From a virus, in the IMG/VR virus record IMGVR_UViG_3300044716_000476, positions 1 through 24,220 of that record: a stretch of 24,220 nucleotides of DNA; one strand, written 5' to 3'. Positions 9,064-22,506 of the stretch are shown here, piece by piece (position 1 is the first letter of the stretch; the number at the start of each line of letters is the position of its first letter). The translations under genes were made by a program, and so were the position numbers. Under the pieces are notes generated by a model. That model did no database searches. It was not told the origin of the DNA and saw only the letters and a program-made list of their open reading frames with translations.

Positions 9064-9977
9064 TATTTCATTTTAGCTTTTAGAGCTTCTTCTAGAGAAA
9101 GGTATAGTGCAGAGTTTTCAGGTTTTGTTAAAAAGTCTACAATATTGATTGTGTCTGTAGAAAGTTGCTCTCCGTTAAAGAATACCTTTGTGTTTTCTTT
9201 TCTTAGAATGGCATATTGGAATAATCTTTCCACTGTAACTGTCAATTCTAATTTTGCTTTATTTTTAGGGTCAGACAACTCTAAGAATAAATCTTGGATT
9301 GCTACTAAAGTTTCTTTAGAAGTGTTCTCTGTGATTTTAGTGTAGAGCATATCTTCAATAATCACATCTTTCTCTTCTCCTGTAAACTTAATTCCCAAGG
9401 CTGTAGCCATGTTTTTCTTTTGAGATTTTGTAAGTCCTTCAAATCTTGTATGTAATTTGCTAACTCTTTCTCTTTTAGATTCTCTCACCACTGCATCTGC
9501 TTCTTCATCTGCAATAATCCATTCTGCTGTGGGATGCTTAGTTAAAGCGTTTTCTCCTATAACAGTCATTGGATCAGAAGTCATAATAGCGTATACTAAT
9601 TCATCCAATGGTTTATTCAAATCTAACATTTGTATATCTCTACCTACTTTAGCTCTACATTTTGAGTTGTTGAAGAAGGGATCTTTTCTGTTTGATGGGT
9701 CAGCAGTAGTTATTTTAGCTCCTGTTGCATCATCATTAAAGGCTAGTTTTTTAACTAAATCATTGATTTGAGCATCAGAGTATCTGTTTCCTACGGGTCC
9801 TAATTGGAATCTGTAGTTTTGCTCGTCAAATTGAGGTCTTATAGTGTTACTGTTTGCTAAAAAAGCATAAGTTTCTGAAATTTGTCTATAAGATGGGTCA
9901 ATGTTAACTTGCCAATGCTTATTCTTTCTAATGTTTGGGTAAATCTTTACCTTTTTTGGTTTAATTGATTCTGACAT
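9063..9977 (-). CDS. Unknown virion-region protein downstream of the capsid gene
   Basis: 304 residues, no family recognised. The N-terminus is basic (PKKVKIYPNIRKNKHW), followed by a mixed domain and, from about residue 165, predominantly helical sequence rich in Lys/Glu. No membrane segments or Cys clusters (one Cys only), unlike the appendage genes. It begins a transcription segment after the tRNA-like element and the capsid terminator and overlaps the adaptor candidate by one base (TAATG). Its leader contains a 17-base word identical to that of the scaffold-like gene, at the same distance from the ATG. Possible roles are internal head protein, head completion or a connector component. Confidence 0.7.
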   Translation of the reverse strand: MSESIKPKKVKIYPNIRKNKHWQVNIDPSYRQISETYAFLANSNTIRPQFDEQNYRFQLGPVGNRYSDAQINDLVKKLAFNDDATGAKITTADPSNRKDPFFNNSKCRAKVGRDIQMLDLNKPLDELVYAIMTSDPMTVIGENALTKHPTAEWIIADEEADAVVRESKRERVSKLHTRFEGLTKSQKKNMATALGIKFTGEEKDVIIEDMLYTKITENTSKETLVAIQDLFLELSDPKNKAKLELTVTVERLFQYAILRKENTKVFFNGEQLSTDTINIVDFLTKPENSALYLSLEEALKAKMK

Positions 9978-9980
9978 ATT

Positions 9981-9997
9981 TTTTTTGTTTTGTGTGT
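9981..9997 (-). promoter_or_regulatory. Shared 17-base translation leader, copy 1
   Basis: Minus-strand word ACACACAAAACAAAAAA lies 3 bases upstream of the ATG of the 304-aa gene. The same word sits at the same distance upstream of the gene at 11726-12862. A role in ribosome binding without Shine-Dalgarno pairing is an inference. Confidence 0.45.
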
Positions 9998-10008
9998 TTA
10001 AAAAATAG

Positions 10009-10080
10009 TAGCAACGACTCAGACTCGAACTGGTTAAACTGGTTTATGAGACCAGAGAGATCCATACCTCCCTCCTGCTA
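10009..10080 (-). tRNA. tRNA-like element, anticodon CAT (Met/Ile type), imperfect fold
   Basis: On the minus strand a D-arm (GGAG/CTCT with loop GTATGGAT), a perfect 5-bp anticodon stem CTGGT/ACCAG with 7-base loop CTCATAA (anticodon CAT at 10048-10046), and a canonical T-loop TTCGAGT with C after it can be drawn. The ends TAGCA and TGCTA pair. Against it: the outer two T-stem pairs do not form, the acceptor stem is only 5-6 bp with a 2-base length conflict, base 8 is A, and no CCA is encoded. It could be a divergent functional phage tRNA or a decaying one. It lies directly after the capsid-gene terminator. Confidence 0.55.
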
Positions 10081-10081
10081 T

Positions 10082-10109
10082 AAAAAGGGGTGATTTATCG
10101 GCTCACCCC
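10082..10109 (-). terminator. Intrinsic terminator after the major capsid gene
   Basis: Minus strand: GGGGTGA (10109-10103), 9-base loop, TCACCCC (10093-10087), then TTTTT (10086-10082). A perfect 7-bp stem with five G/C pairs plus a T-run, 20 bases after the capsid stop codon. Confidence 0.9.
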
Positions 10110-10127
10110 ATAAGGCCTATAAAGGTT

Positions 10128-11705
10128 TTATTTTCCTCTCAATACTGCTGGAATCAACTCACCGCATTTTGTAACATCTTTTACCATGATACCTGCGTAT
10201 TCCATTCTATGTACAGTCCAGAAGTCACCTGCGTGAGACATCAATGAACCTTGGTTATTTCCGTAAGGATTAGACAATCCACCTGTGTAACCGTAAGCAA
10301 CATCTCTTGAAGATTTCAAGTAAGCAATGTTTTTACCAAAACCATCACCCAATCCGTAGTTAACGAATGTAAATCTTGAAGACTCTGCTGGATAACCATT
10401 CTCATCTAAGATAGTGTTGAATGTTACGTCATCATAAGCTTTCATGTGCATAACTGTCAATGAGCCACCTAGTTTGAATTTGTACTGAGTCCAAGGAGTT
10501 TCTGTGTAAGACAATCCTGTTGGTCCACCTGGTACCAATGAATTTCCATCAACTTTGATGAAGTAGTCTTTCATATCTTTGAAATATCCTTGAGTTATTT
10601 GGTTGATAGCCTCATCAAACAATCTCAATCCAATCTCACCTGTCCACATTACAACATTTCTTTGGTCATAAGCAACTCTACCGAAGAAAATATCAGTTAA
10701 GAAGTCTCTTACTAGGCCAATAGAGAAAGTGTTATAGTATTCTCTGTAACCATCTTCCAAAATTTCTTGAAGACCTGGACCTTGATTTACATAGTATCCT
10801 GTTGACTCATCTACAACTGTAGAAGAACTTCTTTGATACATCAAGTGCAATTCTTTTTCCATTTCGAATTCTTTGTTGAATTTAACCTCAGCAACAGAAG
10901 TAATATACATATTATTCTTGATTGGAGAGTTCATTGCTTTTTGAATTCTGTTTTGGAAGTTTTCTTGAGACTCACCTTGTTTTCTACCTGCAAGAATCAA
11001 CAAATCTGCCTCAGTCAAGTTACCGTTCAATTTTCTTTGAGCAGCATCTCCTGTCATTTGGTATTGTTTTCTGAATCTAGAAAGACCAGAACGGAATTTA
11101 ATTTTTCCGATTGAATCTACACTCATTGAACCGCCCTTTACAGAACCTTCAGAGTAAGTAGAAGACATTTTCATTACTCTTGATCCAATAACAAACAAGT
11201 CAGCTGGTACGAATAATGTAGGATCGTCAGTCATAAGTTTTACAGTGTAAATAGTGCTTGAACCGTCTTTTTGACCTGCACTCATTACACGCATGTTGAA
11301 TTTTTTGCTGTCTGTGAATACCAAAGTATCACCTTCAACAAAAGTTCCTAAATCTAATTTCAATTTAAATGGTCTTTGTCCTGCACCTTTTGTAGTGTTA
11401 GATGGCTCAACATCTTCAACCAACAAAGCTGGTCTATAACCTGACACCATGAATTCCCATTCTACTTTGTTACCTTCTACGGTAATTGTGTCTGCACCTT
11501 GAGCAAGTTCCAAAAGTGGAGCTGTACCGTCAAACAATGTTTTCATTGAAGCTAATTGACCCATACCACCCAAAGCATCTACATCAGTTTTAATCAAACC
11601 TGATTGATAAAGATTGTTCAAGTTAGTATAATTCATACCCCAATTACGGTCTCCTGTTAACATAGGAGCCTTAATGATTCCGAATTTACTTTGTGATAAT
11701 TTCAT
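10128..11705 (-). CDS. Major capsid protein (HK97-fold, crAss-like size)
   Basis: 525 residues, assigned mainly by position: directly after portal and an acidic scaffold-like gene, followed by its own strong terminator, and with the more GC-rich codon use of a highly expressed gene. Length fits crAss-like capsid proteins (about 500 residues). Sequence shows mixed alpha/beta composition, many Gly/aromatic residues in the second half (EYYNTFSIGLVRDF, FGRVAYDQRNVVMWTGEIG), and no enzymatic motif. The segment with FDEAINQ and later LTVMHMKAYDD fits P-domain/A-domain-like alternation of an HK97 shell protein, but I cannot prove the fold by eye. Start ATG preceded by AAATTTAAAACAA, with 20 bases after the scaffold-like gene. 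Confidence 0.85.
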   Translation of the reverse strand: MKLSQSKFGIIKAPMLTGDRNWGMNYTNLNNLYQSGLIKTDVDALGGMGQLASMKTLFDGTAPLLELAQGADTITVEGNKVEWEFMVSGYRPALLVEDVEPSNTTKGAGQRPFKLKLDLGTFVEGDTLVFTDSKKFNMRVMSAGQKDGSSTIYTVKLMTDDPTLFVPADLFVIGSRVMKMSSTYSEGSVKGGSMSVDSIGKIKFRSGLSRFRKQYQMTGDAAQRKLNGNLTEADLLILAGRKQGESQENFQNRIQKAMNSPIKNNMYITSVAEVKFNKEFEMEKELHLMYQRSSSTVVDESTGYYVNQGPGLQEILEDGYREYYNTFSIGLVRDFLTDIFFGRVAYDQRNVVMWTGEIGLRLFDEAINQITQGYFKDMKDYFIKVDGNSLVPGGPTGLSYTETPWTQYKFKLGGSLTVMHMKAYDDVTFNTILDENGYPAESSRFTFVNYGLGDGFGKNIAYLKSSRDVAYGYTGGLSNPYGNNQGSLMSHAGDFWTVHRMEYAGIMVKDVTKCGELIPAVLRGK

Positions 11706-11725
11706 TTGTTTTAAATTTATTTATT

Positions 11726-12862
11726 TTAGTTGATGAATTCTATTTTAAAATCGTTAGATTCTTTCTTTTTACCTGCTGTCTTTTTTATAGAGTCTGCAAG
11801 TTTGCTTCTAACTTTACTTTCAATTTCTACTTTTTCAGTTTTATCAGAAAGACCTTCATATAGTTTGTAAGCTAATGCTACCATCTTTTCAGGGTCTGAC
11901 AAATACTCATTAAGTACTTTTTTAAATCCTGTTGACCTTCCTACGACTTGACCTTTATTGTCTTTAATATCCATAGGAGAAAAAATAAAATCTTCAAGAT
12001 TTGTTTTTTGGTTTTTAGCAATAACTACATTATCACTTTTCCCCGCTTTAATTGTTTCTCTTATTTTTCCCACTGTTTTAGAATATTCTTCTTTTTGATA
12101 ACGAGCATATTCTTCTTGGGACTTCACTAACTCTTCTTCTTGTTTCTCTCTGTATTTTTGTAAATCAGATTGAATCTTAGTAGCCTGGGTAAACAATTTG
12201 TTTTTTTCTTTATAACCCTCTACAAGTTCCTCTGCTTCTTCTTCCTCTAAACCCTTTACAGATTGTAGATAAGTTTTTACTAGAGCTGTGGCATTATCTT
12301 CGTCTTCTATATCTACATCCACCCAATTTGTGTCTGCATGTAAATTAATATAATCGTCAATATTACCCCCGTTTTTCAAGAAATTAAGAACACCGTCTAC
12401 TTTAGGATCATCTATCTTGTAAGCATTTTTAACCATACTCACCGCTCTATCTTCTAGAGTTTTTTCATAAGCCTCATATAAAGACTCTTCATCACCATTC
12501 CAATCTTCTGGAATATCTAAAAGATTTTTTTCAGCTAATTCTTGAGCAAAGATTTTTAAAGGACTTTCTTCTACTTCATCCTCCTCCGTTTCTTCTTCCT
12601 CTTCTTTTTCCTCAGACTCTTCTTCAGACTCCTCAGTTTTTTTAGCTTTTTCTTCTTTTTTCTTAATGATGGCTTTTTTCTCTTCATCAGTTAAGTCTAA
12701 CTCATCTAAGTTCGACTCATCCACTAAATCAGTGTTTACTAAGTCATTGTCATCATCTTCTTCAACCTCGTTTAGAGTTTGAATCTTGTCTGTAAGATTA
12801 TTATCATCTAGCATACTATCGCTAAACTCCATAATCTCAAAATCTAGATTATTGTCTATCAT
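11726..12862 (-). CDS. Acidic scaffold-like protein
   Basis: 378 residues. The first 100 residues are extremely acidic (runs of E and D, e.g. EESEEKEEEEETEEDEVEES at about 81-100), the middle is helical with strong coiled-coil character (about 215-270, Q/K/E-rich), and the C-terminus ends in a basic helix (KLADSIKKTAGKKKE) followed by a short hydrophobic tail. A charged coiled-coil protein between portal and capsid genes is the classic place and type of a head scaffolding protein; the basic C-terminus is the usual capsid-binding end. It may be removed by the ClpP-like protease encoded at 20288-20830, which is an inference. Its leader carries the 17-base word also found before the gene at 9063-9977. 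Confidence 0.7.
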   Translation of the reverse strand: MIDNNLDFEIMEFSDSMLDDNNLTDKIQTLNEVEEDDDNDLVNTDLVDESNLDELDLTDEEKKAIIKKKEEKAKKTEESEEESEEKEEEEETEEDEVEESPLKIFAQELAEKNLLDIPEDWNGDEESLYEAYEKTLEDRAVSMVKNAYKIDDPKVDGVLNFLKNGGNIDDYINLHADTNWVDVDIEDEDNATALVKTYLQSVKGLEEEEAEELVEGYKEKNKLFTQATKIQSDLQKYREKQEEELVKSQEEYARYQKEEYSKTVGKIRETIKAGKSDNVVIAKNQKTNLEDFIFSPMDIKDNKGQVVGRSTGFKKVLNEYLSDPEKMVALAYKLYEGLSDKTEKVEIESKVRSKLADSIKKTAGKKKESNDFKIEFIN

Positions 12863-12976: not shown

Positions 12977-15493
12977 TTACTTAGTAGTTTTATTATCTTT
13001 ACCCATTAAAGCTATTTCTTTTTCTAATTTTTTATTTTGTAACTCTATTTGTTTCATCTTTTCCTCTTTAAGACTAACATCTGCTGATGATTGATTTTTA
13101 AGCATCTGTAATTCTACCAAATCATTTTCATTATTTTCGTTAATATCATTAGCTCTTGCAAACCTTTCAGCATTGAGTTCTGCTGCTTGTAGAGTGGTAG
13201 CATTTCTGTCATCTGCTATTTGTTTTTCTACTCTAAGCTTCTCTTGCTCCATTTGAGTTTGCATTTGCATTTGTTGCTGTTGTTGCTCTTGTTGAGCTGC
13301 TTGCATTTGCTCTTCTTTAGCTTCTTTTTCAACTTGTATTCTGTTAATGATGTTTTTAACTTCTGTAGCGTTTTCTGATGTTATAATCTCTGCGGCCACT
13401 CTTAAATCTCCACCAGCATTTTGAATGATAGGTTGAATAAGATTTTTAAACTGATTTAACATTTCTGTATCTCTCAAAGTATTAGTGATGTAAACCTTAT
13501 AATTATAATTAGCAAAATCTGCGAATTCTGTATTCAATGTAGCAACACTTAAATCAGAAAGAATATAAGATGCTTTTAAAGGGTTTTCTTTGTAAACCAC
13601 TTTACATACTTCAATATAGTTTTCTACAGTTCTCTCTTTAACGTAAGAGTGCATATAAAACCATTTTTCAGTTTGATTAGAAGACTGTATAATACTTTGT
13701 TGATTATTAGACACAGATTCATAAGGAGATTGCATTCCTAATCTTGCAGGATTGTAACTCATTGCTTGAGTCATTTTTCTCTCTATATAATCAAGTAATT
13801 GTATTTTTTGTTGAATCTCTTGAGTGTGAGATAGGTCTATAGATTTCCAATACTGGGGGTCAACTCCTAAGTTTCTCATATCCCCGTCTCTAGAACCACT
13901 AATCAATGCCACTTTGAATTTCTTAATATAAGTCATCCATTGTGTAGGTGTCATATCTTTTGGTATCTGCTCATTCAAACCTAATAGGACTTTACCTATA
14001 TCAGTTTTCATAACCTCAATGATTTGATTTACAATAACATTGTATAAAAACTGCCAAGGTTTCCCTAAATCAGCAATTGCTACTGCCATAGAGTTTCTTG
14101 CAGAGTAAACTGTACCTGTGTAAGGGCCTCTAATTTGGAAAGGATTATCAATATCTCTGTATTGGTTAGGAACTGGCTCTATCTTCAAATAAACTTTAGG
14201 GTTAGTGAAGATTTTATATCCTTGCCAGTATTCTGGAATCCAAATGATTTCTTGTTTAATATCATTAGCTTTGTCAAAAACATAAGTTTCATCAACTATG
14301 TTTCTTTCTAATGTACCATTCTCATTTAATCTATAAATGTATTTAATTTTCTTCAAAGATTTCCAAACCACATGGGTTACACGAAGTCTTCTAATCTTAT
14401 AGTTATCGTTGTAATTATCTTCCCAAGGATCAATCCAACTTGGAGTTGTCTCAGGGTCTGTAGGATTCATAATAGCATTAGGAATAATTTCCCATACTTT
14501 AGAATCACTTGGAGAGTTTAATGTAGACTCATATTTGTCAAAAACTTCTCTCTCTTCTTCTGTAATTATATTACCAAACTTTTGATATATCTCATAAATA
14601 GAAAGATATTCATCATAAGTACACCAATCCACCTCATCTAAGTAATCTACATCCTTAGATTTAGCGTAATTAAAATATAAAGGATTACAAGCTTTAATTG
14701 TAGGCTTTCCGTTATACTCACCTGTCCAATACACCTCTTCACCTGTAATGATTACATCTTTCCAACCTTTATCAAATACAAACTTTAATCTATCTGTACG
14801 AATATGATATTGTAATATTTCATCAGTTACTTTTTCTTCAGGCAATCTAAAACCATGAGCCATATAGTTCTCTACCTCAACAGGAGTCATTTTTACGGCA
14901 GCTTCTTCTAACTGTGCTTGAAAACTCTCTTGTATTTGTTGTAGTTTTTCTTGATATTGAGGATCAGTGTTAGGATCAATACTAGCCGCAGCTTCCTGCA
15001 TCTTTTTTTGATTCTCAACCTGTAGTTTACTTATAATACTTTCTTTAACAATCTTTGCTGTATTCTCAAGCAATAAATCTTTTCTAGTTCTTTGTCTAAC
15101 AGATTCGCTGTTAGAATTAGTTGTGACAGCTCTAATATTAAAAGGTCTTTTAATCTCTTCTCCCTCTAAATCGTGTAACACTGTCTGTAAAACAGGAAAA
15201 TGGATAAAGTCACTTTGGTTAAACTCAATTTCAGGCATAGACACACCTAAATCACTCTCTACAACTTTACCTGTCTCTAAAAAACTGTTAAAGTCCATAC
15301 GACCGTTATAAAGTTCATAATTTATCTTGAACTTTTCTTTCTTTTCGTTATAATAATTATATTGATTACAGAAATAATCCATCTTCTTTCTAGCCCAAGC
15401 ATACTTATCCGCTATCTTCTTTTTGTAAGAAAGCCTGTCTGTACCTGGTCCAGAAAGAATTACATCTTCTGTAGCATTACCATTAATTACCAT
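12977..15493 (-). CDS. Portal protein
   Basis: 838 residues, immediately downstream of TerL, with the size of crAss-like portals. The N-terminal part has the Y-E-L-Y-N-G segment and a long helix; the middle contains the W-K-D-V-I-I-T-G-E-E-V-Y-W pattern followed by C-N-P-L-Y-F, a stretch seen in large portals of this type, and Y-S-A-R-N-S / A-I-A-D-L-G before the stem. From about residue 710 the protein becomes a long coiled coil with a Gln-rich run (QQEQQQQQMQMQ) and ends in basic helices, consistent with a barrel/crown extension inside the head. It forms the dodecameric DNA channel and docks TerL during packaging. ATG preceded by a TAAATTTG promoter-like box (15519-15512). Identification by order and pattern. 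Confidence 0.85.
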   Translation of the reverse strand: MVINGNATEDVILSGPGTDRLSYKKKIADKYAWARKKMDYFCNQYNYYNEKKEKFKINYELYNGRMDFNSFLETGKVVESDLGVSMPEIEFNQSDFIHFPVLQTVLHDLEGEEIKRPFNIRAVTTNSNSESVRQRTRKDLLLENTAKIVKESIISKLQVENQKKMQEAAASIDPNTDPQYQEKLQQIQESFQAQLEEAAVKMTPVEVENYMAHGFRLPEEKVTDEILQYHIRTDRLKFVFDKGWKDVIITGEEVYWTGEYNGKPTIKACNPLYFNYAKSKDVDYLDEVDWCTYDEYLSIYEIYQKFGNIITEEEREVFDKYESTLNSPSDSKVWEIIPNAIMNPTDPETTPSWIDPWEDNYNDNYKIRRLRVTHVVWKSLKKIKYIYRLNENGTLERNIVDETYVFDKANDIKQEIIWIPEYWQGYKIFTNPKVYLKIEPVPNQYRDIDNPFQIRGPYTGTVYSARNSMAVAIADLGKPWQFLYNVIVNQIIEVMKTDIGKVLLGLNEQIPKDMTPTQWMTYIKKFKVALISGSRDGDMRNLGVDPQYWKSIDLSHTQEIQQKIQLLDYIERKMTQAMSYNPARLGMQSPYESVSNNQQSIIQSSNQTEKWFYMHSYVKERTVENYIEVCKVVYKENPLKASYILSDLSVATLNTEFADFANYNYKVYITNTLRDTEMLNQFKNLIQPIIQNAGGDLRVAAEIITSENATEVKNIINRIQVEKEAKEEQMQAAQQEQQQQQMQMQTQMEQEKLRVEKQIADDRNATTLQAAELNAERFARANDINENNENDLVELQMLKNQSSADVSLKEEKMKQIELQNKKLEKEIALMGKDNKTTK

Positions 15494-15549: not shown

Positions 15550-18500
15550 TTAAAACTTAGTAAGAGTGGTACTTTTTAGTCTGTTATTGTATAAATCAGA
15601 ATAAAAGTTTTTAGCTGTTCTTTGGGCAATCTCTTCTGATTCCTTAACTACTAACTCTTTATCTTGTTCTATCCACAACATTAACAATAAAAAAGCTGAT
15701 ACACGGTCAAAGTTTCCTTTGTCGTTGTATTGAATAAGTTCTTCAAGCAATAAATCGTCTTTTATTGTATTTAAGTTTCTTTCTACCACCTCTCTCTTGG
15801 TTCCATCAGCTAACTCTTCTACATAGCTTTTTTTCTCATCTAACAACCATTGTTGAGCTAATCTGAGAGCATACTGTTTTAGAGGATTAGTCATCGGAAT
15901 ACCTACATCGTACTTAAATGAAGGATCTCTTAAAGCTTTCTCTATAATTTGTTTAGGAGTGGACGCTAGTATGTGATAGTTTCCTGTACGCATACAATAG
16001 TTTTTAAAGTCAATGATGTTATTTTCAAACATTACTTGAGCATTAAAATATTTAGCTGCCATAACACACTGTTGATGAATATCATCTGGTTTATCATATC
16101 TGCCTACCCACCAAGCAATTAACTCATTACCATTAGCATCTACTGTGTTATTAGACTTATACACATAAATAGCTGCTAATGATGTACCTCCACCCTCATC
16201 TTTAATAGGGTCATAAACTATTTTATAAAGATCTGGTTGTATAAATCCCGCAGGAGGATGCTCGTAAAATTCCCAAGCAGAAGTTAAATTTGATTTAGAG
16301 TCGTGAGGAAACCTATCAATAGGTCTTAAATCAAAGTCTGGCTTAAATTTAACACCATAGATGTAGTCTTTGTCCTCTAAAAGTATTCCCATTGTTCTAA
16401 GGTGTTTCTTATACCCATATCTATCATTTGTAGCCTGTTGCTCTCTAAGCATAACCACAGGAAACTTATTACCTGTTTTAGACAAGAACATCTCAGAAGG
16501 TTTGAGAGGTCTTGACATAATATATTCATCGTATGCTGAAGTATTATTGTTTTTCTTCTTTTGCTCTCTAACTTCCATCTCATATTTCAAAGAGGTTTCT
16601 ACGTCAGTGTTGCCCATCTTATCTTTATAAGCTAAGTTGGTGTAAATAGAAGGTAGAAAGAAACCTAGTACCCCTCTTCCCTCATATATGTCATTAAAGC
16701 CTAAAAAATCATATCCTTCAGGGTCTCTAAATATAATTTCAGACTCAATAACTTTTTCCATATCTCCACCAGTGTTGTGTGTTACAATACCATTGGCAAT
16801 ATAGTTATGGTCTCCACCAGCAGACATATTATAAACGATTTGTTCTCCAAGATACTCTAAACTTACTACTCTTTCCCACCTAATATCACTTTTTCTGTAA
16901 AGAGATTTTCTTTCAGATAAAACTTTAACTATTTTATTTAGATTATCTTGTTTATATCCTACCAATAAAGTAATATTTTTATGAAAGTTTAAAATACTAT
17001 CTTTATCCTTAATATACAAATTATAGGTAACATTTTTACCCTCTGCCAATTTAGTTTTTCTAGGGGACTCTTTAATTATTTTAGATTGAATTCCAAATTT
17101 ATTTAATAGTAATTGTAATTCTGTTACTATATTTTTACAAATTGATGTATATTTTAATGTACTTACTTGTTTTTCAGAAAAGTGAATACAACCATCAGTA
17201 TCAAATAAACCTCCTATAAATTCTTTTATAGTTTCTTTATTACAATAATGTAACTTTTCAGGAATATGTTTTTCTAGTTTATTTTGTAAATGTAAATCCA
17301 AATCTTCTAACTTAGATTTTAATCCTAGTATTCTAGTTTTATATAATCCATTTTCTTCACTATCTACTTTTACAGTGTATTTATTTTGAATATAATTTAA
17401 AAGACTTTTATCTTTTGTAATAAATTTAGTGGTTTCAGTAAAAGACCCATCTCCTATTAGCATACCTAATAATCTTGCATCAAATAATGTTTCTTTACCA
17501 AAATAATCTACATTATTAATAACTCCTACTCTTTCGCCTATTTTTAAATCTTTTGCTTCCTTGTATACTGGAGTTAATTTTCTTGTACCACAATTATATC
17601 TTTCTTGTGTGTAAATAGGGTGGTCATCACTACAAGATAGTTCTCTGCCTGTATTGGTAGTAATTTTATAACAATGTTTTCTAGAGGTACCCATTTTAAA
17701 CTTAGTGGTGGTAGGCTGAAATTTATTTTCACTTTCATTCAATCCCATAACCCCTTCTTCTTTTATCAAGTCTTGCACTTTTACATAAATACCCTCTGCA
17801 TTTAAAATTAGAGAATCTTCACATACACAACCTAAATAGAATGAAGACCCAAACTTACCTGACCCCATATCCTGTGTAGATTCGTTGGCACCATGCACTG
17901 TTAAGATTTTATCTTCCAAACCAACCTCTTCTACAACTAATACGTTATAACGTCCTCCTACAGCGGCTTGTTTATTATCTTTGTAAGTTTCATGTACCAA
18001 CATAGAACCTGTACCCTGTTTAACAGAGTTATTTCCTATCTTTTTCTCATACTCAAATCTAAAAGCATTCTTAGAGTTTCCTACTTTAAGGGTTCCTGAA
18101 GAATTTCTTGAGAATGGAGGGGGATAGTATTCTCTATCTGTATAACCACCAGGAAGATGAGATAAAGAATTTGCAAATTTATCTAACAATTGTGAGGATT
18201 TACTTGAGCTTGCTGAACCACAAAATATTTCCACTTTATTTCTACCTGATAAATAATCCTCTACAGTTTTAGCTCCATCTGTAATCCATTCATGTTCCAT
18301 AATAGCAGATGCCATAAAACTTTTACCCCCTGAACGGCTTCCTAATAGAAACAAATTCAACGAGTTATTATCATATAATGGGTTACCAAGAGAATTTTTG
18401 TGAGTAATATTTAAATACTCTAAAGGGTCAACATAAGTTTTTAAAGTCCCATCTTTTTTATAACAATACTCTGTTAGATTATTTATATATTTTAAAGGAA

Positions 18501-18909
18501 TATCAGGAAGTGTCTCATCTTTTAATTTATCTTCTTTTAGTTTAACTGTCCAATTACAAGTGTACTCCTCATCATCTTGGAATCCACTAAAACCTCTACA
18601 AATAAACCAACAATTAAACAAAGTCCAATTTATATCTAATAAATTAGGTCTTGATAATATACGTTGTTTACCCTCTTGAATTGTAATGGTATGATAGTTA
18701 GTGAAGTAGTTCAATTGAGGATTCATATATCTCCATCTCTCTCCTTCGGGAGTTTCTTCTGTTTGCCACATTCCATAAATTAATTCATCCAATTCTTTCA
18801 TCCAATATTGTTCATAAGCAGAACTATGTGGATGTAGCTTAGGATGATTTTTAATAAACTTAGTGTTATCAAAAATTTTAGGAAAAATTAAATCAGTGTT
18901 TATTATCAT
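15550..18909 (-). CDS. terL: Terminase large subunit interrupted by an intein
   Basis: 1119 residues: a 767-residue TerL plus a 352-residue intein at 361-712. ATPase domain: Walker A G190-S-R-S-G-G-K-S197; Walker B Y-N-V-L-V-V-E-E (321-328). The intein splits the coupling segment, restored after splicing to F-Y-L-G-T-G-G-D-M. RNase H-like nuclease: candidate metal ligands D900 (IVYDPIKDEGG), E962 (VMFENN) and D1068 (NFDRVSAF), in the right order and spacing. TerL cuts concatemers and drives DNA into the prohead through the portal. ATG overlaps the stop of the 85-aa gene in ATGA, and the portal gene follows 56 bases later. Splicing must happen for activity, because the intein sits beside the ATPase site. 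Confidence 0.95.
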   Translation of the reverse strand: MIINTDLIFPKIFDNTKFIKNHPKLHPHSSAYEQYWMKELDELIYGMWQTEETPEGERWRYMNPQLNYFTNYHTITIQEGKQRILSRPNLLDINWTLFNCWFICRGFSGFQDDEEYTCNWTVKLKEDKLKDETLPDIPLKYINNLTEYCYKKDGTLKTYVDPLEYLNITHKNSLGNPLYDNNSLNLFLLGSRSGGKSFMASAIMEHEWITDGAKTVEDYLSGRNKVEIFCGSASSSKSSQLLDKFANSLSHLPGGYTDREYYPPPFSRNSSGTLKVGNSKNAFRFEYEKKIGNNSVKQGTGSMLVHETYKDNKQAAVGGRYNVLVVEEVGLEDKILTVHGANESTQDMGSGKFGSSFYLGCVCEDSLILNAEGIYVKVQDLIKEEGVMGLNESENKFQPTTTKFKMGTSRKHCYKITTNTGRELSCSDDHPIYTQERYNCGTRKLTPVYKEAKDLKIGERVGVINNVDYFGKETLFDARLLGMLIGDGSFTETTKFITKDKSLLNYIQNKYTVKVDSEENGLYKTRILGLKSKLEDLDLHLQNKLEKHIPEKLHYCNKETIKEFIGGLFDTDGCIHFSEKQVSTLKYTSICKNIVTELQLLLNKFGIQSKIIKESPRKTKLAEGKNVTYNLYIKDKDSILNFHKNITLLVGYKQDNLNKIVKVLSERKSLYRKSDIRWERVVSLEYLGEQIVYNMSAGGDHNYIANGIVTHNTGGDMEKVIESEIIFRDPEGYDFLGFNDIYEGRGVLGFFLPSIYTNLAYKDKMGNTDVETSLKYEMEVREQKKKNNNTSAYDEYIMSRPLKPSEMFLSKTGNKFPVVMLREQQATNDRYGYKKHLRTMGILLEDKDYIYGVKFKPDFDLRPIDRFPHDSKSNLTSAWEFYEHPPAGFIQPDLYKIVYDPIKDEGGGTSLAAIYVYKSNNTVDANGNELIAWWVGRYDKPDDIHQQCVMAAKYFNAQVMFENNIIDFKNYCMRTGNYHILASTPKQIIEKALRDPSFKYDVGIPMTNPLKQYALRLAQQWLLDEKKSYVEELADGTKREVVERNLNTIKDDLLLEELIQYNDKGNFDRVSAFLLLMLWIEQDKELVVKESEEIAQRTAKNFYSDLYNNRLKSTTLTKF
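16774..17829 (-). other. LAGLIDADG intein inside TerL
   Basis: 352 codons in frame. Starts C-V-C-E-D-S-L-I (block A with Cys1 at TerL residue 361); block B is G-R-E-L-S-C-S-D-D-H-P, with Ser in the usual Thr position of TxxH; the two homing motifs are L-L-G-M-L-I-G-D-G (intein 120-128) and F-I-G-G-L-F-D-T-D-G (204-213); block F is V-Y-N-M-S-A-G-G-D-H-N-Y and block G ends G-I-V-T-H-N, followed by Thr as the +1 residue. All elements needed for splicing and for endonuclease activity look intact, including the acidic residues of both LAGLIDADG motifs. Confidence 0.95.
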
Positions 18910-19163
18910 TGTCTAGGAGGTCCAGGTTTTATATCTGAAATATCATCAGGGTTAGGAGCTTTTGAAATAATTTTTTTGACAAAATCTTCTATTGTAAAGT
19001 TTTTATTTATAGGGATAAATTTAATTTCAACAGGAGGAGTTACAACGTGTTCAAAATCATCAAAATTCCTCAAAGTTTCTCTAATGAGTTTTTTTGTATC
19101 TTTTTTATCAATAACTTTTTCTACTTCAATTACTTTATCTTCTGTATCAATTAATATTATCAT
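18906..19163 (-). CDS. Small unknown protein before TerL
   Basis: 85 residues, no family recognised. Beta-rich start (MIILIDTEDKVIEVEKVI) followed by a charged helix and a Pro-rich tail (KAPNPDDISDIKPGPPRQ). It overlaps the 64-aa gene by 17 bases and TerL by four (ATGA), which supports it as a real, translationally coupled gene. A helper role in packaging is possible from position alone. Confidence 0.6.
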   Translation of the reverse strand: MIILIDTEDKVIEVEKVIDKKDTKKLIRETLRNFDDFEHVVTPPVEIKFIPINKNFTIEDFVKKIISKAPNPDDISDIKPGPPRQ

Positions 19164-19341
19164 TTGTTTCTTCAGTTTCTTTCTCCGCTTTTTCCTTCAG
19201 TTCTTTTTGCCAAGCCTCTTGCTTTGCCTTATCATAGGTTTTCATAATGCTTGATAACCAAAAATATTTTCCTTCTTTTAAAGAAAATCTTTCTCTTTGC
19301 TTTGGTTGATTGTGGATGTTTGGTTTATTTACTGGATACAT
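19147..19341 (-). CDS. Small basic/coiled unknown protein
   Basis: 64 residues, no family recognised. The N-terminus is basic (NKPNIHNQPKQRERF), the C-terminal 35 residues are a highly charged helix (AWQKELKEKAEKETEE). It lies 16 bases after the 180-aa gene and overlaps the next gene by 17 bases. The ATG is preceded by AAACAATAAAAT. Confidence 0.55.
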   Translation of the reverse strand: MYPVNKPNIHNQPKQRERFSLKEGKYFWLSSIMKTYDKAKQEAWQKELKEKAEKETEETNDNIN

Positions 19342-19357: not shown

Positions 19358-19900
19358 TTATTTTTTGTTTAATAATTTCTCAGAAAAAGATTCTTCTCTT
19401 CCTCCTCTAGCTCTTGTTTCAATGTTTTCTTCTTGATATTCTTTATAAACTTTACCAAAGGCTTCCCAAATTGGCTTAGAGTCCTTCATCATCTTGTCTA
19501 AAGCTTCAAAAGTATTCATATCGTAAGTGACACTCTCTAAAAACTTATTTCTTTCTTCAATTTTATCATGCCACACTTTAAGTTCTCTCTGTATCTTACT
19601 TAACACTACTTTTGGGTAAGCATCTATTAGCTCCTGATACCTATTAAATGTGAATTCAGGGTCTTTAATAAAGAATGTTTTAATTTCTTCTTCTCTTTCG
19701 TCTAATCTCAACCTTATTTTAGGACTGTTTATATCACATAATAAATAAATTGCCCACATCACCATAGATGTTTTCTTTTTATCCGTTATAGAGGTGTAGA
19801 ATGCATCATAAGGAGCAACAAATTTAAACTCTGGGTTTACTTCCCAAAACTTATCCTTAAACTCTTCGTAATTATTGTTTTGTATTAAATTATAATCCAT
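19358..19900 (-). CDS. Unknown helical protein upstream of TerL (small terminase candidate)
   Basis: 180 residues, no family recognised. Sequence is mostly helical and charged, with a Trp/Tyr-rich first third (FWEVNPEFKFVAPYDAFY) and a basic C-terminal tail (RARGGREESFSEKLLNKK). The C-terminal ESFSEKLL patch could be a docking peptide. Location a few hundred bases before TerL, size and helical character are compatible with a small terminase subunit, but no helix-turn-helix can be confirmed. It starts two bases after the SET gene stop. Confidence 0.65.
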   Translation of the reverse strand: MDYNLIQNNNYEEFKDKFWEVNPEFKFVAPYDAFYTSITDKKKTSMVMWAIYLLCDINSPKIRLRLDEREEEIKTFFIKDPEFTFNRYQELIDAYPKVVLSKIQRELKVWHDKIEERNKFLESVTYDMNTFEALDKMMKDSKPIWEAFGKVYKEYQEENIETRARGGREESFSEKLLNKK

Positions 19901-19902
19901 AA

Positions 19903-20295
19903 TTAGTATTCTTCAAAGTAATCTATTCTTTCTCCGTGTTTAAAATTATACAATTCTTTTGTATTTATTAAATCCCCTGTTTCTTTGTCTCTAAATTCTT
20001 TCACTATAATTTCTTCAGTTTCATAGTAATTTCTTTTTACTTCATCTCCTACTTTAATCTTTCTTGTTGCTACTAGAGAATGACCATTCACCCTTACATT
20101 AGGGTCAAAAGAATGATTTATCTCTTTTACAACAGGATCAAGGATATGATAGTTGTCATCTAATTGTATTGTGTATTGGGTAGGGGTTTTGTGGTCTTCG
20201 CAACAAATGAATAAAACAGTTTCACCTGCATAGAATTCTTTTGTGGATACAACTATCTTTAATTTCCCTTTTTTTATTATTTCAAAATTATCCAT
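19903..20295 (-). CDS. SET-domain protein (putative protein lysine methyltransferase)
   Basis: 130 residues, the size of a minimal SET domain. Residues 60-67 read N-H-S-F-D-P-N-V, matching the NHSCxPN motif that forms the cofactor pocket, with Phe replacing Cys. Residues 74-91 read L-V-A-T-R-K-I-K-V-G-D-E-V-K-R-N-Y-Y, matching the (A)xRxIxxGEELxxxY strand that carries the catalytic Tyr. The N-terminal G-K-L-K-I-V-V-S-T-K-E-F-Y-A-G-E-T-V-L fits the first SET strands (guGvfAxxxIxxGexI). Known SET enzymes methylate lysine side chains using S-adenosylmethionine. The target here is unknown: a virion protein or a host protein are both possible. It overlaps the ClpP-like gene by 8 bases, and no pre- or post-SET zinc domain is present. 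Confidence 0.75.
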   Translation of the reverse strand: MDNFEIIKKGKLKIVVSTKEFYAGETVLFICCEDHKTPTQYTIQLDDNYHILDPVVKEINHSFDPNVRVNGHSLVATRKIKVGDEVKRNYYETEEIIVKEFRDKETGDLINTKELYNFKHGERIDYFEEY

Positions 20296-20830
20296 CTAGT
20301 CTGTCTTTAAAAATTTTAACTAAATCCTCATAGAAAAGATGTACATCTTCTCCTTTAAGTAATTTGGTTTGTTGTGTTGTGGGTAGGTGTAGAGCTTTTA
20401 ATTGCTCATTAAAATCAACTAGATGTCTTCTCTTCTTAAAAAAGTCTTTTGGATAGATGTTATTATTATTAAAATCTCTCCAAGACTCAACTCTAGGAAA
20501 ATGAACTACACTAATTATACTCTTATCTATAAATTTAATAGGAACCGTTGTGTTTAACAATAAAAAGAATGCAGAGCTAGAACATTGTTCTAAAGGATAA
20601 ATAACTATATCTTCATAATCCTCTATCACTGTCATCAAAGGATAGACATAATTGATATATCCCCCTGGTGAATTAATAAATAAATTTACAGGTTGTGTGT
20701 TTGAATTTAAGAAATTGATTAGACTTACAGAGTTATCAGAGTCAAAATCACCTTCAAAAATATAAGTGATTCTTCTATCAGAAAACTCTAATTCAGGTAA
20801 AACTTCTTGTATTTGTGCTTCTTCTGTCAT
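20288..20830 (-). CDS. ClpP-like serine protease (prohead protease candidate)
   Basis: 180 residues, close to ClpP size. Residues 50-57 read L-F-I-N-S-P-G-G, the oxyanion-loop motif of ClpP/crotonase-fold proteases. Residues 82-87 Q-C-S-S-S-A align with GQAASMA of ClpP, placing the nucleophile at S85; V-V-H110-F-P aligns with the catalytic His, 25 residues later, exactly the ClpP S97-H122 distance. The C-terminal segment K-G-E-D-V-H-L-F-Y-E-D aligns with the SAxEAxxYGLVD block, but the catalytic Asp position appears to be Thr155 or Gln154. The N-terminal ClpP processing-pore regions are reduced. In phages, such proteins process scaffold and capsid during head maturation; with a scaffold-like gene in the same unit this is the likely role. 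Activity is not certain because of the missing acid. Confidence 0.8.
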   Translation of the reverse strand: MTEEAQIQEVLPELEFSDRRITYIFEGDFDSDNSVSLINFLNSNTQPVNLFINSPGGYINYVYPLMTVIEDYEDIVIYPLEQCSSSAFFLLLNTTVPIKFIDKSIISVVHFPRVESWRDFNNNNIYPKDFFKKRRHLVDFNEQLKALHLPTTQQTKLLKGEDVHLFYEDLVKIFKDRLDG

Positions 20831-20831
20831 A

Positions 20832-21134
20832 TTATACTATTTCAGCTGCAACTGCTAAAGAAACTGTTGTACAATTTCCTGAAACATAAACATATTTCGT
20901 ACCTGGGGATGTTAAATGTCTACTGAAAGTTATTTCAACAGATTCGCCTGCTTTTAATACTTGTCCTGTCTTAATATTATTAGGTGTTGTACATCCACAA
21001 GAAGATGTTACACTTCTACATACAAAATCAACCTCTCCAATATTGGTTAGAGTGGATTTACCTGTTCCATGTTCATTTCTTTTACCTTTTACTAACACTG
21101 TTGCAGGATTAAACTGTAATACTGTATTTTCCAT
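20832..21134 (-). CDS. DUF1573-like Ig-fold protein
   Basis: 100 residues. The pattern of alternating strands with T-L-T-N-I-G-E-V-D-F (28-37), V-T-S-S-C-G-C-T-T-P (42-51), L-K-A-G-E-S-V-E-I-T-F (about 61-71) and a final V-Y-V-S-G-N strand matches the DUF1573 family, a PapD/ASPM-like Ig fold abundant in Bacteroidota and their phages. The paired C46-G-C48 is the hallmark of the family. There is no signal peptide, so unlike most bacterial members it would stay in the cytoplasm or in the virion. It is separated by two bases from the Cys-rich 101-aa gene and by one base from the ClpP-like gene. Confidence 0.75.
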   Translation of the reverse strand: MENTVLQFNPATVLVKGKRNEHGTGKSTLTNIGEVDFVCRSVTSSCGCTTPNNIKTGQVLKAGESVEITFSRHLTSPGTKYVYVSGNCTTVSLAVAAEIV

Positions 21135-21136
21135 TG

Positions 21137-21442
21137 TTAAAAATTTAGTTTATTATCTATTTTAAATTGTGTCCATTCTTTTTCTCCCATCATATTAGGG
21201 AAACAAGGGTTTTCTTTTCTTTTACACCCTTCTGTACCATAAAACAAATCAGGAGTTTCACACCCACACTCTAAACAACTGCCATTTAATGTACAAGGTT
21301 TAGCTGCTTCTGCTCTCCATAAGACTTGTTCTTTCTCCCAATCAGGCAAAAAACCAGCCTCCCTGACTTGAGCAGAGAGGTAGTTCTTTACATTCTTAAA
21401 AGTTATTTTAGCTGGATTATTAGCGTCTGGATTAGCAAACAT
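21137..21442 (-). CDS. Small Cys-rich protein of unknown function
   Basis: 101 residues. Residues 50-83 hold seven Cys in the order C-x6-C-x2-C-x-C ... C ... C (PCTLNGSCLECGCETPDLFY, then GCKR and PCFP), a good zinc-site candidate. The N-terminal half is helical with K-N-Y-L-S-A-Q-V-R-E-A-G-F-L-P-D-W. I recall similar small proteins (LNGxCxxCGCxxPDL) from Bacteroidota phages but know no function. Sits just upstream of the DUF1573-like gene, with which it may act. Confidence 0.65.
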   Translation of the reverse strand: MFANPDANNPAKITFKNVKNYLSAQVREAGFLPDWEKEQVLWRAEAAKPCTLNGSCLECGCETPDLFYGTEGCKRKENPCFPNMMGEKEWTQFKIDNKLNF

Positions 21443-21452
21443 ATAAATATTT

Positions 21453-21767
21453 TTATAGACTTAATACATCCCAGTTTTCCATAAAATTTCCACCTTCCAT
21501 TTTGTCATCTTCTTCCTCAGTATCTTCTTCTTCCATTTCTAGTGGGTTTTTTTCAAAATACTTCTTAACACAAGAATACTCTCCTTCTCCACCGAAAGGA
21601 TATTTATCCACTGTTAAAAGCCATCCATTACTGATTTTTTCTAAAGTTTTTGAAACTTCTTCTTTCTCAGTTCTTTTTTTCAGAGTAAAGGTTTCTTTCT
21701 CGGAATTCATTTCTTTTGTTAAAGAAATCATTTTCTTTTTGCTGTCCATAATCATTGGTGTTTTCAT
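21453..21767 (-). CDS. Small acidic-tailed unknown protein
   Basis: 104 residues, no family recognised. Basic/charged first half (MDSKKKMISLTKEMNSEKE), a short W/Y-containing core (SNGWLLTVDKYPFGG) and an acidic C-terminal stretch (MEEEDTEEEDDKMEGG) before a hydrophobic end. The Met at 21767 is used as the start since it is one base from the preceding stop; Met5 and Met7 are alternatives. Position inside the tight operon supports reality. Confidence 0.55.
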   Translation of the reverse strand: MKTPMIMDSKKKMISLTKEMNSEKETFTLKKRTEKEEVSKTLEKISNGWLLTVDKYPFGGEGEYSCVKKYFEKNPLEMEEEDTEEEDDKMEGGNFMENWDVLSL

Positions 21768-21768
21768 T

Positions 21769-22194
21769 TTAAATAGTATGTTTAATTGTAATTAAATCTT
21801 CAGGGATAAGGAATGTCAACTCAAGCGGAGTTTCTGGTTCCTCAATTTTATGACAATAAAATGCAAATGGCAACATACCTTGCAAATAAGAACCAAACAC
21901 AGGTCTTGCGTCTTTGTTAGGGTCATTACCTTCAGGGTGTTTGTAGCTTACAATTGGTCTATCTACAAAGTTATCTCCTACAGAAACAATATCTCCAACT
22001 TGGAATGTAGCATTAGGCCCTGCTTTAAGAATTTTAAACGCATTCTTAATCTCTGTAGCTTGTTTTTCAATCCCTACAAGAACCTTTGATAGCGTACTTT
22101 TTTTAGCATAGCATTGTACTAGCAAATGCTTGTCTTTTGTGATTTCGTAATCAAACTGTGGAATCACTTCTTCTTTGAATTCTTTTACTGTCAT
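21769..22194 (-). CDS. Unknown protein, possible GroES-like fold
   Basis: 141 residues. Residues ~20-85 run I-T-K-D-K-H-L-L-V-Q-C ... V-L-V-G-I-E-K ... F-K-I-L-K-A-G-P-N-A-T-F-Q-V-G-D-I-V-S-V-G-D. The V/L-x-A-G-P-N-x ... F-x-V-G-D-I-V stretch is reminiscent of the GroES barrel (V-x-A-V-G-P-G ... V-x-V-G-D-x-V), and T4 gp31 shows that phages can carry divergent co-chaperonins needed for capsid folding. The mobile loop cannot be identified and the C-terminal part differs, so this is a weak assignment. It overlaps the HU/IHF-like gene stop in ATGA and starts the head-side operon after it. Confidence 0.4.
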   Translation of the reverse strand: MTVKEFKEEVIPQFDYEITKDKHLLVQCYAKKSTLSKVLVGIEKQATEIKNAFKILKAGPNATFQVGDIVSVGDNFVDRPIVSYKHPEGNDPNKDARPVFGSYLQGMLPFAFYCHKIEEPETPLELTFLIPEDLITIKHTI

Positions 22195-22466
22195 AATTTT
22201 TTTGGTTTATAATTTAAATTTTTTAATGTTAATATGTGTCTTTTTACTTTTTCTTCATCTCTTCTATAAAAAGCTTCTCTTAATCTTGCTCTTATCTTTC
22301 CTATGCTCGGTACAAACTTCCCAAATTTTTCAAGATAAATCTCTCTTTCAGGATTCCTTTTTGACTCTGCTCTCACCTCATTTAAAAATATTCTATATAT
22401 TTTTTCAACTTCTTTCTCAGAGATTCCCATCTCTTCTGAAACTTTTTTATATAATCTCTTCATCAT
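22191..22466 (-). CDS. HU/IHF-like DNA-binding protein
   Basis: 91 residues from ATG 22466, or 90 from the next ATG. An in-frame start at 22493 exists but lies inside a promoter-like box, so the later Met pair (M-M-K-R-L-Y-K-K-V) is preferred and gives the normal length of HU family members. The sequence V-S-E-E-M-G-I-S-E-K-E-V-E-K-I-Y-R-I-F-L-N-E-V followed by L-E-K-F-G-K-F-V-P matches the N-terminal helices and the L-x-x-F-G-x-F turn of HU/IHF. The classical beta-arm with the Pro tip is reduced, leaving a short basic C-terminus. IHF-like genes close to the structural genes are a known feature of crAss-like phages. It probably bends or condenses DNA; it is the first gene after two promoter-like boxes. 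Confidence 0.75.
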   Translation of the reverse strand: MMKRLYKKVSEEMGISEKEVEKIYRIFLNEVRAESKRNPEREIYLEKFGKFVPSIGKIRARLREAFYRRDEEKVKRHILTLKNLNYKPKKL

Positions 22467-22490
22467 AGACAATATATTATATATTAGAAG

Positions 22491-22506
22491 CAAATATACA
22501 AAAAAA
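22491..22506 (-). promoter_or_regulatory. Promoter-like box A upstream of the HU/IHF-like gene
   Basis: Minus-strand TTTTTTTGTATATTTG contains TATATTTG, a full match to TAnnTTTG, the Bacteroidota -7 element. Its end is 24 bases before the chosen ATG. It is an exact 16-base copy of box B located 41 bases upstream. Confidence 0.4.

Follow-up and report, generated by a model that had tools for sequence, protein, structure and literature searches.

A SET-fold gene in the head and packaging module of crAss-related phages: a deep sister lineage of small bacterial BurB-like methyltransferases

SET proteins are textbook histone methyltransferases and, to our knowledge, almost no functions have been assigned to those of bacteria and phages. 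Exchange of the active-site tyrosine for phenylalanine is generally held to inactivate lysine methyltransferases. In zinc-free SET proteins, C-terminal elements serve as a lid; vSET of Paramecium bursaria chlorella virus 1 has no zinc site. The nearest characterised relative of the phage protein described here, BurB of Burkholderia thailandensis (PDB 9l4t/9l4v), is a methionine S-methyltransferase of DMSP/malleicyprol synthesis (PMC12542666). In BurB, H93 contacts the adenine of SAM, a Y124F variant retains more than 60% of the activity and a Y124A variant almost none, and Y124 was considered by the authors not to be a catalytic residue in this enzyme; zinc is not mentioned in their paper (PMC12542666). 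In Methanosarcina, the DNA-binding protein MC1-alpha is methylated by a SET enzyme, Go1-SET (PMC3980110).

A phage-encoded SET protein is not in itself new, as databases already carry such annotations for uncultured tailed phages and for giant viruses. Two annotated in uncultured Caudovirales (A0A6J5L8Y2 and A0A6J5PTS6, BFVD) have a phage-encoded SET fold in common with the present protein, at 14-19% identity. The open-licence papers listed in our literature searches included none on a SET protein of a crAss-type packaging module or crAss-like phage, and none on phage capsid lysine methylation. Two apparent mentions of a 'SET domain' were discarded: 'C2-set' immunoglobulin in the crAss001 structure paper and 'I-set' in a Salmonella phage paper. 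Within the literature searched, we met no SET protein that combines a fixed place inside a crAss-type packaging module with loss of the zinc-type cysteines and a sister relation to a metabolite methyltransferase.

The DNA analysed here (the window) is a viral stretch of 24,220 nucleotides, IMG/VR record IMGVR_UViG_3300044716_000476. An earlier note on its letters had placed a SET-domain methyltransferase at positions 19903-20295, in a head-assembly operon between a ClpP-like protease and the terminase large subunit. Both the coordinates and this placement were borne out, with the gene on the minus strand and three small genes separating it from the terminase gene. The note's interpretation was supported in part, namely for the SET fold and the head/packaging setting; methylation of a virion or host protein is a proposal. 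The relevant features are:

20832..22493, minus strand: conserved upstream module, comprising a DUF1573 protein, three genes and an IHF/HU-like DNA-binding protein (22191-22493)
20288..20830, minus strand: ClpP-like protease gene (19.5 bits with Pfam CLP_protease, for which the cut-off is 20.2; E 0.006 with the PHROG head maturation protease)
19903..20295, minus strand: gene for a SET-fold protein of 130 aa (Pfam, homologues, AF2 model, 33 syntenic loci)
20098..20118, minus strand: NHSFDPN motif, residues 60-66, the SAM-contact motif of SET proteins
19993..20049, minus strand: G83-F101 block (GDEVKRNYYETEEIIVKEF)
19963..19989, minus strand: DKETGDLIN, residues 103-111, in place of the bacterial CxCG....C post-SET cysteines
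19358..19900, minus strand: 180-aa gene immediately downstream of the SET gene (33 of 33 loci)
18906..19341, minus strand: two small genes of 64 and 85 aa (19147-19341 and 18906-19163) between the 180-aa gene and the terminase gene
15550..18909, minus strand: terminase large subunit (TerL), interrupted by a LAGLIDADG intein
12977..15493, minus strand: portal protein
10128..11705, minus strand: major head protein (MCP)

The description of the region as a head-assembly operon was also correct, since the phage is distantly related to crAss-like phages and to a set of Flavobacterium phages that includes FpV4. In tblastn searches, the portal and major head proteins were approximately 26-31% identical to crAss-like and Flavobacterium (e.g., FpV4) counterparts at 85-96% coverage, and TerL, portal and major head proteins of the Crassvirales/Fipvunavirus type were also matched by profiles. 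By analogy with these phages, the host is likely a member of the Bacteroidota. FpV4 has the same TerL-portal-x-MCP order and, upstream, a homologue of the window gene at 21137-21442, and gave no SET match. For the genes between 21137-21442 and TerL, no counterpart was found in FpV4, which suggests that the DUF1573-ClpP-SET-180aa block is particular to the present phage group. The TerL intein also occurs in L030 and is suggested in L042 by a TerL frame of 1087 aa; in ten related phages TerL is uninterrupted (767-768 aa). The DUF1573 (Ig-like) protein, encoded at 20832-21134 inside the packaging module (Pfam 32.6 bits), changes faster than the products of neighbouring genes (dN 0.24 in comparison with L005).

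Relatives of the SET protein were encoded at 28 and 34 loci in two IMG/VR scans. Across 33 viral loci a single gene order was found as far as each contig reaches: IHF-like, three genes, DUF1573, ClpP-like, SET, 180 aa, 64 aa, 85 aa, TerL, portal, x and MCP. The 180-aa gene directly followed the SET gene in all 33, and of the 30 loci long enough to show the other side, 29 have the ClpP-like gene before the SET gene. When contigs were recruited independently via the major head protein, the SET gene was present in all that extend to the site. In L042 (4669-4697) the ClpP-like gene is missing and the SET gene is retained with both flanks, which indicates that SET is independent of the protease gene. 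Pairwise dN/dS values of the SET gene ranged from 0.04 to 0.21 (median 0.10), and in the comparison of the window with L005 it had the lowest dN among four neighbouring genes compared. The gene is thus under strong purifying selection, and its fixed synteny and low dN/dS led us to reject a chance open reading frame. Its start overlaps the ClpP-like gene by 8 bases and a 2-base gap separates it from the next gene, an arrangement that suggests co-translation.

The signatures on which the assignment was originally based, NHSFDPNV (residues 60-67) and ATRKIKVGDEVKRNYY, were both present in the product of 19903-20295, which was the only SET protein retrieved from the window's own record in a SET profile search. 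Against Pfam SET (PF00856) it scored 21.9 bits (E 2.4e-4), narrowly missing the curated cut-off of 22.4. All 13 distinct homologues matched the family (best E 4.3e-6), and orthologues in five long phage contigs scored above the cut-off. A tblastn search of the window protein against 50,697 phage records gave zero matches. No PHROGs family was found for it at E <= 0.01, and a relaxed threshold of E 5 gave a single, chance-level match, for one orthologue. When the phage SET alignment was scanned against prokaryote genome contigs, none were found.

Structure prediction with AF2 gave a SET fold. The alignment combined the 13 phage sequences with 78 relatives, chosen from the small SET genes of bacteria and archaea, at least 118 in number, that a degenerate DNA pattern retrieved from 84,980 prokaryote genomes. 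The resulting model had a pLDDT of 86.6 and a pTM of 0.78; with the 13 phage sequences alone the pLDDT was 42 and the model unusable. In Foldseek, the top PDB match was BurB (E 4e-8), followed by ASH1L, SETD8, MLL and vSET; 152 PDB chains matched at E <= 0.001, and the best 50 of these 152 were SET proteins. VIA-align likewise ranked BurB (Z 14.5, rmsd 2.1 over 115 residues) above ASH1L (Z 11.4) and vSET (Z 9.8). The added SET sequences could bias the AF2 model. The kinship itself stands apart from the model, because a profile built from phage SET proteins alone matched BurB at E 6e-6.

Profile, fold and tree agreed in identifying small bacterial BurB-like SET proteins, rather than histone-type enzymes, as the nearest relatives. 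In a midpoint-rooted tree of 92 proteins the phage variants formed a single clade (support 100/99) whose stem measured 2.55 changes per column; this clade was sister to, and outside, the BurB-like clade (99/87), with a joint branch supported at 93/88. The position of such a long branch is not certain. FYPSTEW proteins, common in Bacteroidota, formed a separate clade (99/95). On this tree the SET-fold gene represents a deep, phage-specific sister to the small BurB-like SET methyltransferases of bacteria. Its product shares with BurB a small single-domain layout and, in most phage variants, the lack of the canonical Asn before HS. It differs in the absence of the HSC and CxCG..C cysteines and of the SET-N glycines, in a hairpin two residues shorter, and in its location in a head/packaging operon, and no DMSP pathway genes were found in the long, possibly incomplete phage contigs. 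With small bacterial FYPSTEW-type SETs (e.g., of Chitinophagaceae, Chloroflexota and cyanobacteria) it shares the single-domain layout and the H..PN...G[DE]...Y..TE..F signature, whereas those proteins belong to a distinct, well-supported clade and retain NHSC and the post-SET cysteines. vSET is likewise a compact viral SET with a similar fold, but belongs to a eukaryotic virus, acts on histone H3K27 and is 25% identical over 89 residues.

Across the 91 aligned sequences, H61, P65, N66, G83, T93, E94 and F101 were invariant. The phage clade additionally kept S62, F63, D64 and Y91 without exception. Residues H61, Y90 and T42 correspond to H93, Y124 and T73 of BurB. Conservation of N60, H61 and Y90, whose absence the earlier note had named as a ground for refutation, gave a mixed picture: it held for H61, whereas residue 60 was Asn in 3 and Lys in 10 of the 13 phage variants, and Y90, present in 12, was Phe in one (L007/L029, two contigs). 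This variation does not refute the SET assignment, because the Asn is missing from BurB-like bacterial proteins too, and the Y124F form of BurB is more than 60% active. Asn at position 60 occurred in 41 of 41 FYP-type proteins and in no BurB-like protein, and is therefore not diagnostic here. A sharper difference concerned positions 63, 103, 106 and 111: Cys occupied these in 78, 78, 77 and 77 of the 78 cellular relatives (31, 31, 30 and 30 of the 31 BurB-like proteins), compared with 0, 0, 0 and 1 of the 13 phage variants. The residues otherwise found there in the phages are F, D, T and N. From known post-SET domains, we infer that these four cysteines bind zinc in the bacterial proteins. The N-terminal (SET-N) glycines were also lost in the phage clade; this motif is weak in the FYP bacterial subfamily as well.

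The reading that we favour, tentatively, is that the gene is expressed late and encodes a SAM-dependent methyltransferase whose target is a protein from the assembly module of the phage itself. SAM would be bound through the retained SET core (H61, DPN, T93-E94 and Y90 or F90) and the methyl group passed to the side chain of a lysine in one of that module's proteins, while a C-terminal helix (residues 113-120) would replace the lost zinc-bound post-SET lid. Candidate substrates are the virion and packaging proteins and, on the Go1-SET/MC1-alpha precedent, the IHF/HU-like DNA-binding protein. A protein substrate is preferred over a metabolite because no sulfonium-pathway genes were found in the long, possibly incomplete phage contigs. 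The step from SET fold to lysine methylation is a weak one, because the nearest solved relative methylates methionine. The use of free methionine by BurB, the loss of the cysteines and SET-N glycines in the phages, the single F90 variant and the dependence of the AF2 model on bacterial SET sequences all speak against the favoured reading. Screening the module's proteins for a single standout invariant lysine in a tail gave no usable information, since the large proteins contain many invariant lysines. A more specific proposal, for which we would claim less, is that a phage lineage has converted a BurB-type SET enzyme into a protein methyltransferase without zinc, and that head maturation requires this enzyme to modify a virion or packaging protein. 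If true, protein methylation would be built into phage assembly. With a fixed, strongly selected SET gene in the capsid/packaging block of crAss-related phages, a role in virion assembly can be put to a direct test, and a phage sister of the BurB-type fold without zinc-type cysteines is useful for studying how SET enzymes switch substrate.

Coordinated motif loss also allows a non-catalytic role, in which the protein would be a SET-fold assembly factor, scaffold or protease partner in head morphogenesis, its SAM site being a relict or binding SAM without turnover. The zinc-ligand positions and SET-N glycines all changed on the single long stem (branch 2.55), N60 and Y90 are not fixed, and the gene always lies within the head/packaging module. 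We nevertheless consider this role rather unlikely: H61, S62, P65, N66, T93, E94 and F101 stay invariant at a dN/dS of 0.1 and, with the glycine motif weak in FYP proteins and the Asn absent from BurB-like ones, such losses alone are not proof of a dead enzyme.

Affinity by sequence, fold and tree is best with BurB and BurB-like proteins, which is consistent with a small-molecule methyltransferase. In the infected cell its substrate for S-methylation would be methionine or else a related thioether or amine, and the reaction would spend SAM or make a sulfonium compound. Among the matches listed, 8 of 35 BurB-like genes lie near genes for AdoMet decarboxylase, PLP decarboxylase or aminotransferase/aldehyde dehydrogenase, compared with 2 of 77 FYP-type genes, and the Y90F variant could be active, as is BurB Y124F with over 60% of its activity (PMC12542666). 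This function is a genuine rival that we nonetheless consider rather unlikely, since the gene is located in a morphogenesis module and the phage clade falls outside the BurB clade and is devoid of the BurB cysteines. Moreover, the aldehyde dehydrogenase, class III aminotransferase, PLP decarboxylase and AdoMet decarboxylase families (Aldedh, Aminotran_3, Orn_Arg_deC_N and AdoMet_dc) were unmatched in six or seven long phage contigs of 40-140 kb, which are possibly incomplete. Methylation of a host protein (e.g., ribosomal, nucleoid or defence) instead of a phage protein would have parallels in vSET, which modifies H3K27, and in secreted bacterial SETs acting on histones (PMC10117894, PMC3980110), but is improbable in view of the strict head/packaging linkage, which suggests late expression alongside virion proteins, and of the probable location of most takeover genes elsewhere.

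SET genes of other types were also encountered. One phage of the group (L245, IMGVR_UViG_3300021141_000007) encodes a second SET protein at 1453-1833 (126 aa, Pfam SET 50 bits), of which only the last 31 residues were matched in G003 and G006, in a 38-aa frame (87% identical). Viral contig L053 encodes a different, 113-aa SET protein with NHSFDPN at 9845-10186, near an open reading frame (10880-11929) that appeared integrase-like by eye.

In five bacteria from at least three phyla, genes for SpeD-like AdoMet decarboxylases (PF02675) adjoin a BurB-like SET gene:

L160 7009-7416: SpeD-like gene
L170 5228-5653: SpeD-like gene
L091 6217-6624: SpeD-like gene
L148 1635-2000: SpeD-like gene
L149 7093-7461: SpeD-like gene

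Their products may decarboxylate S-methylmethionine and so stand in for the PLP enzyme BurI of DMSP-type pathways. In Desulfoprunum (L163 5301-6494) and a Caulobacteraceae bin (L143 4633-5820) a PLP decarboxylase gene lies directly 3' of a BurB-like SET gene, and in Aquabacterium (L125 5036-7998) aminotransferase and aldehyde dehydrogenase genes adjoin one. These three loci are likely sulfonium (DMSP-type) clusters outside Burkholderia.
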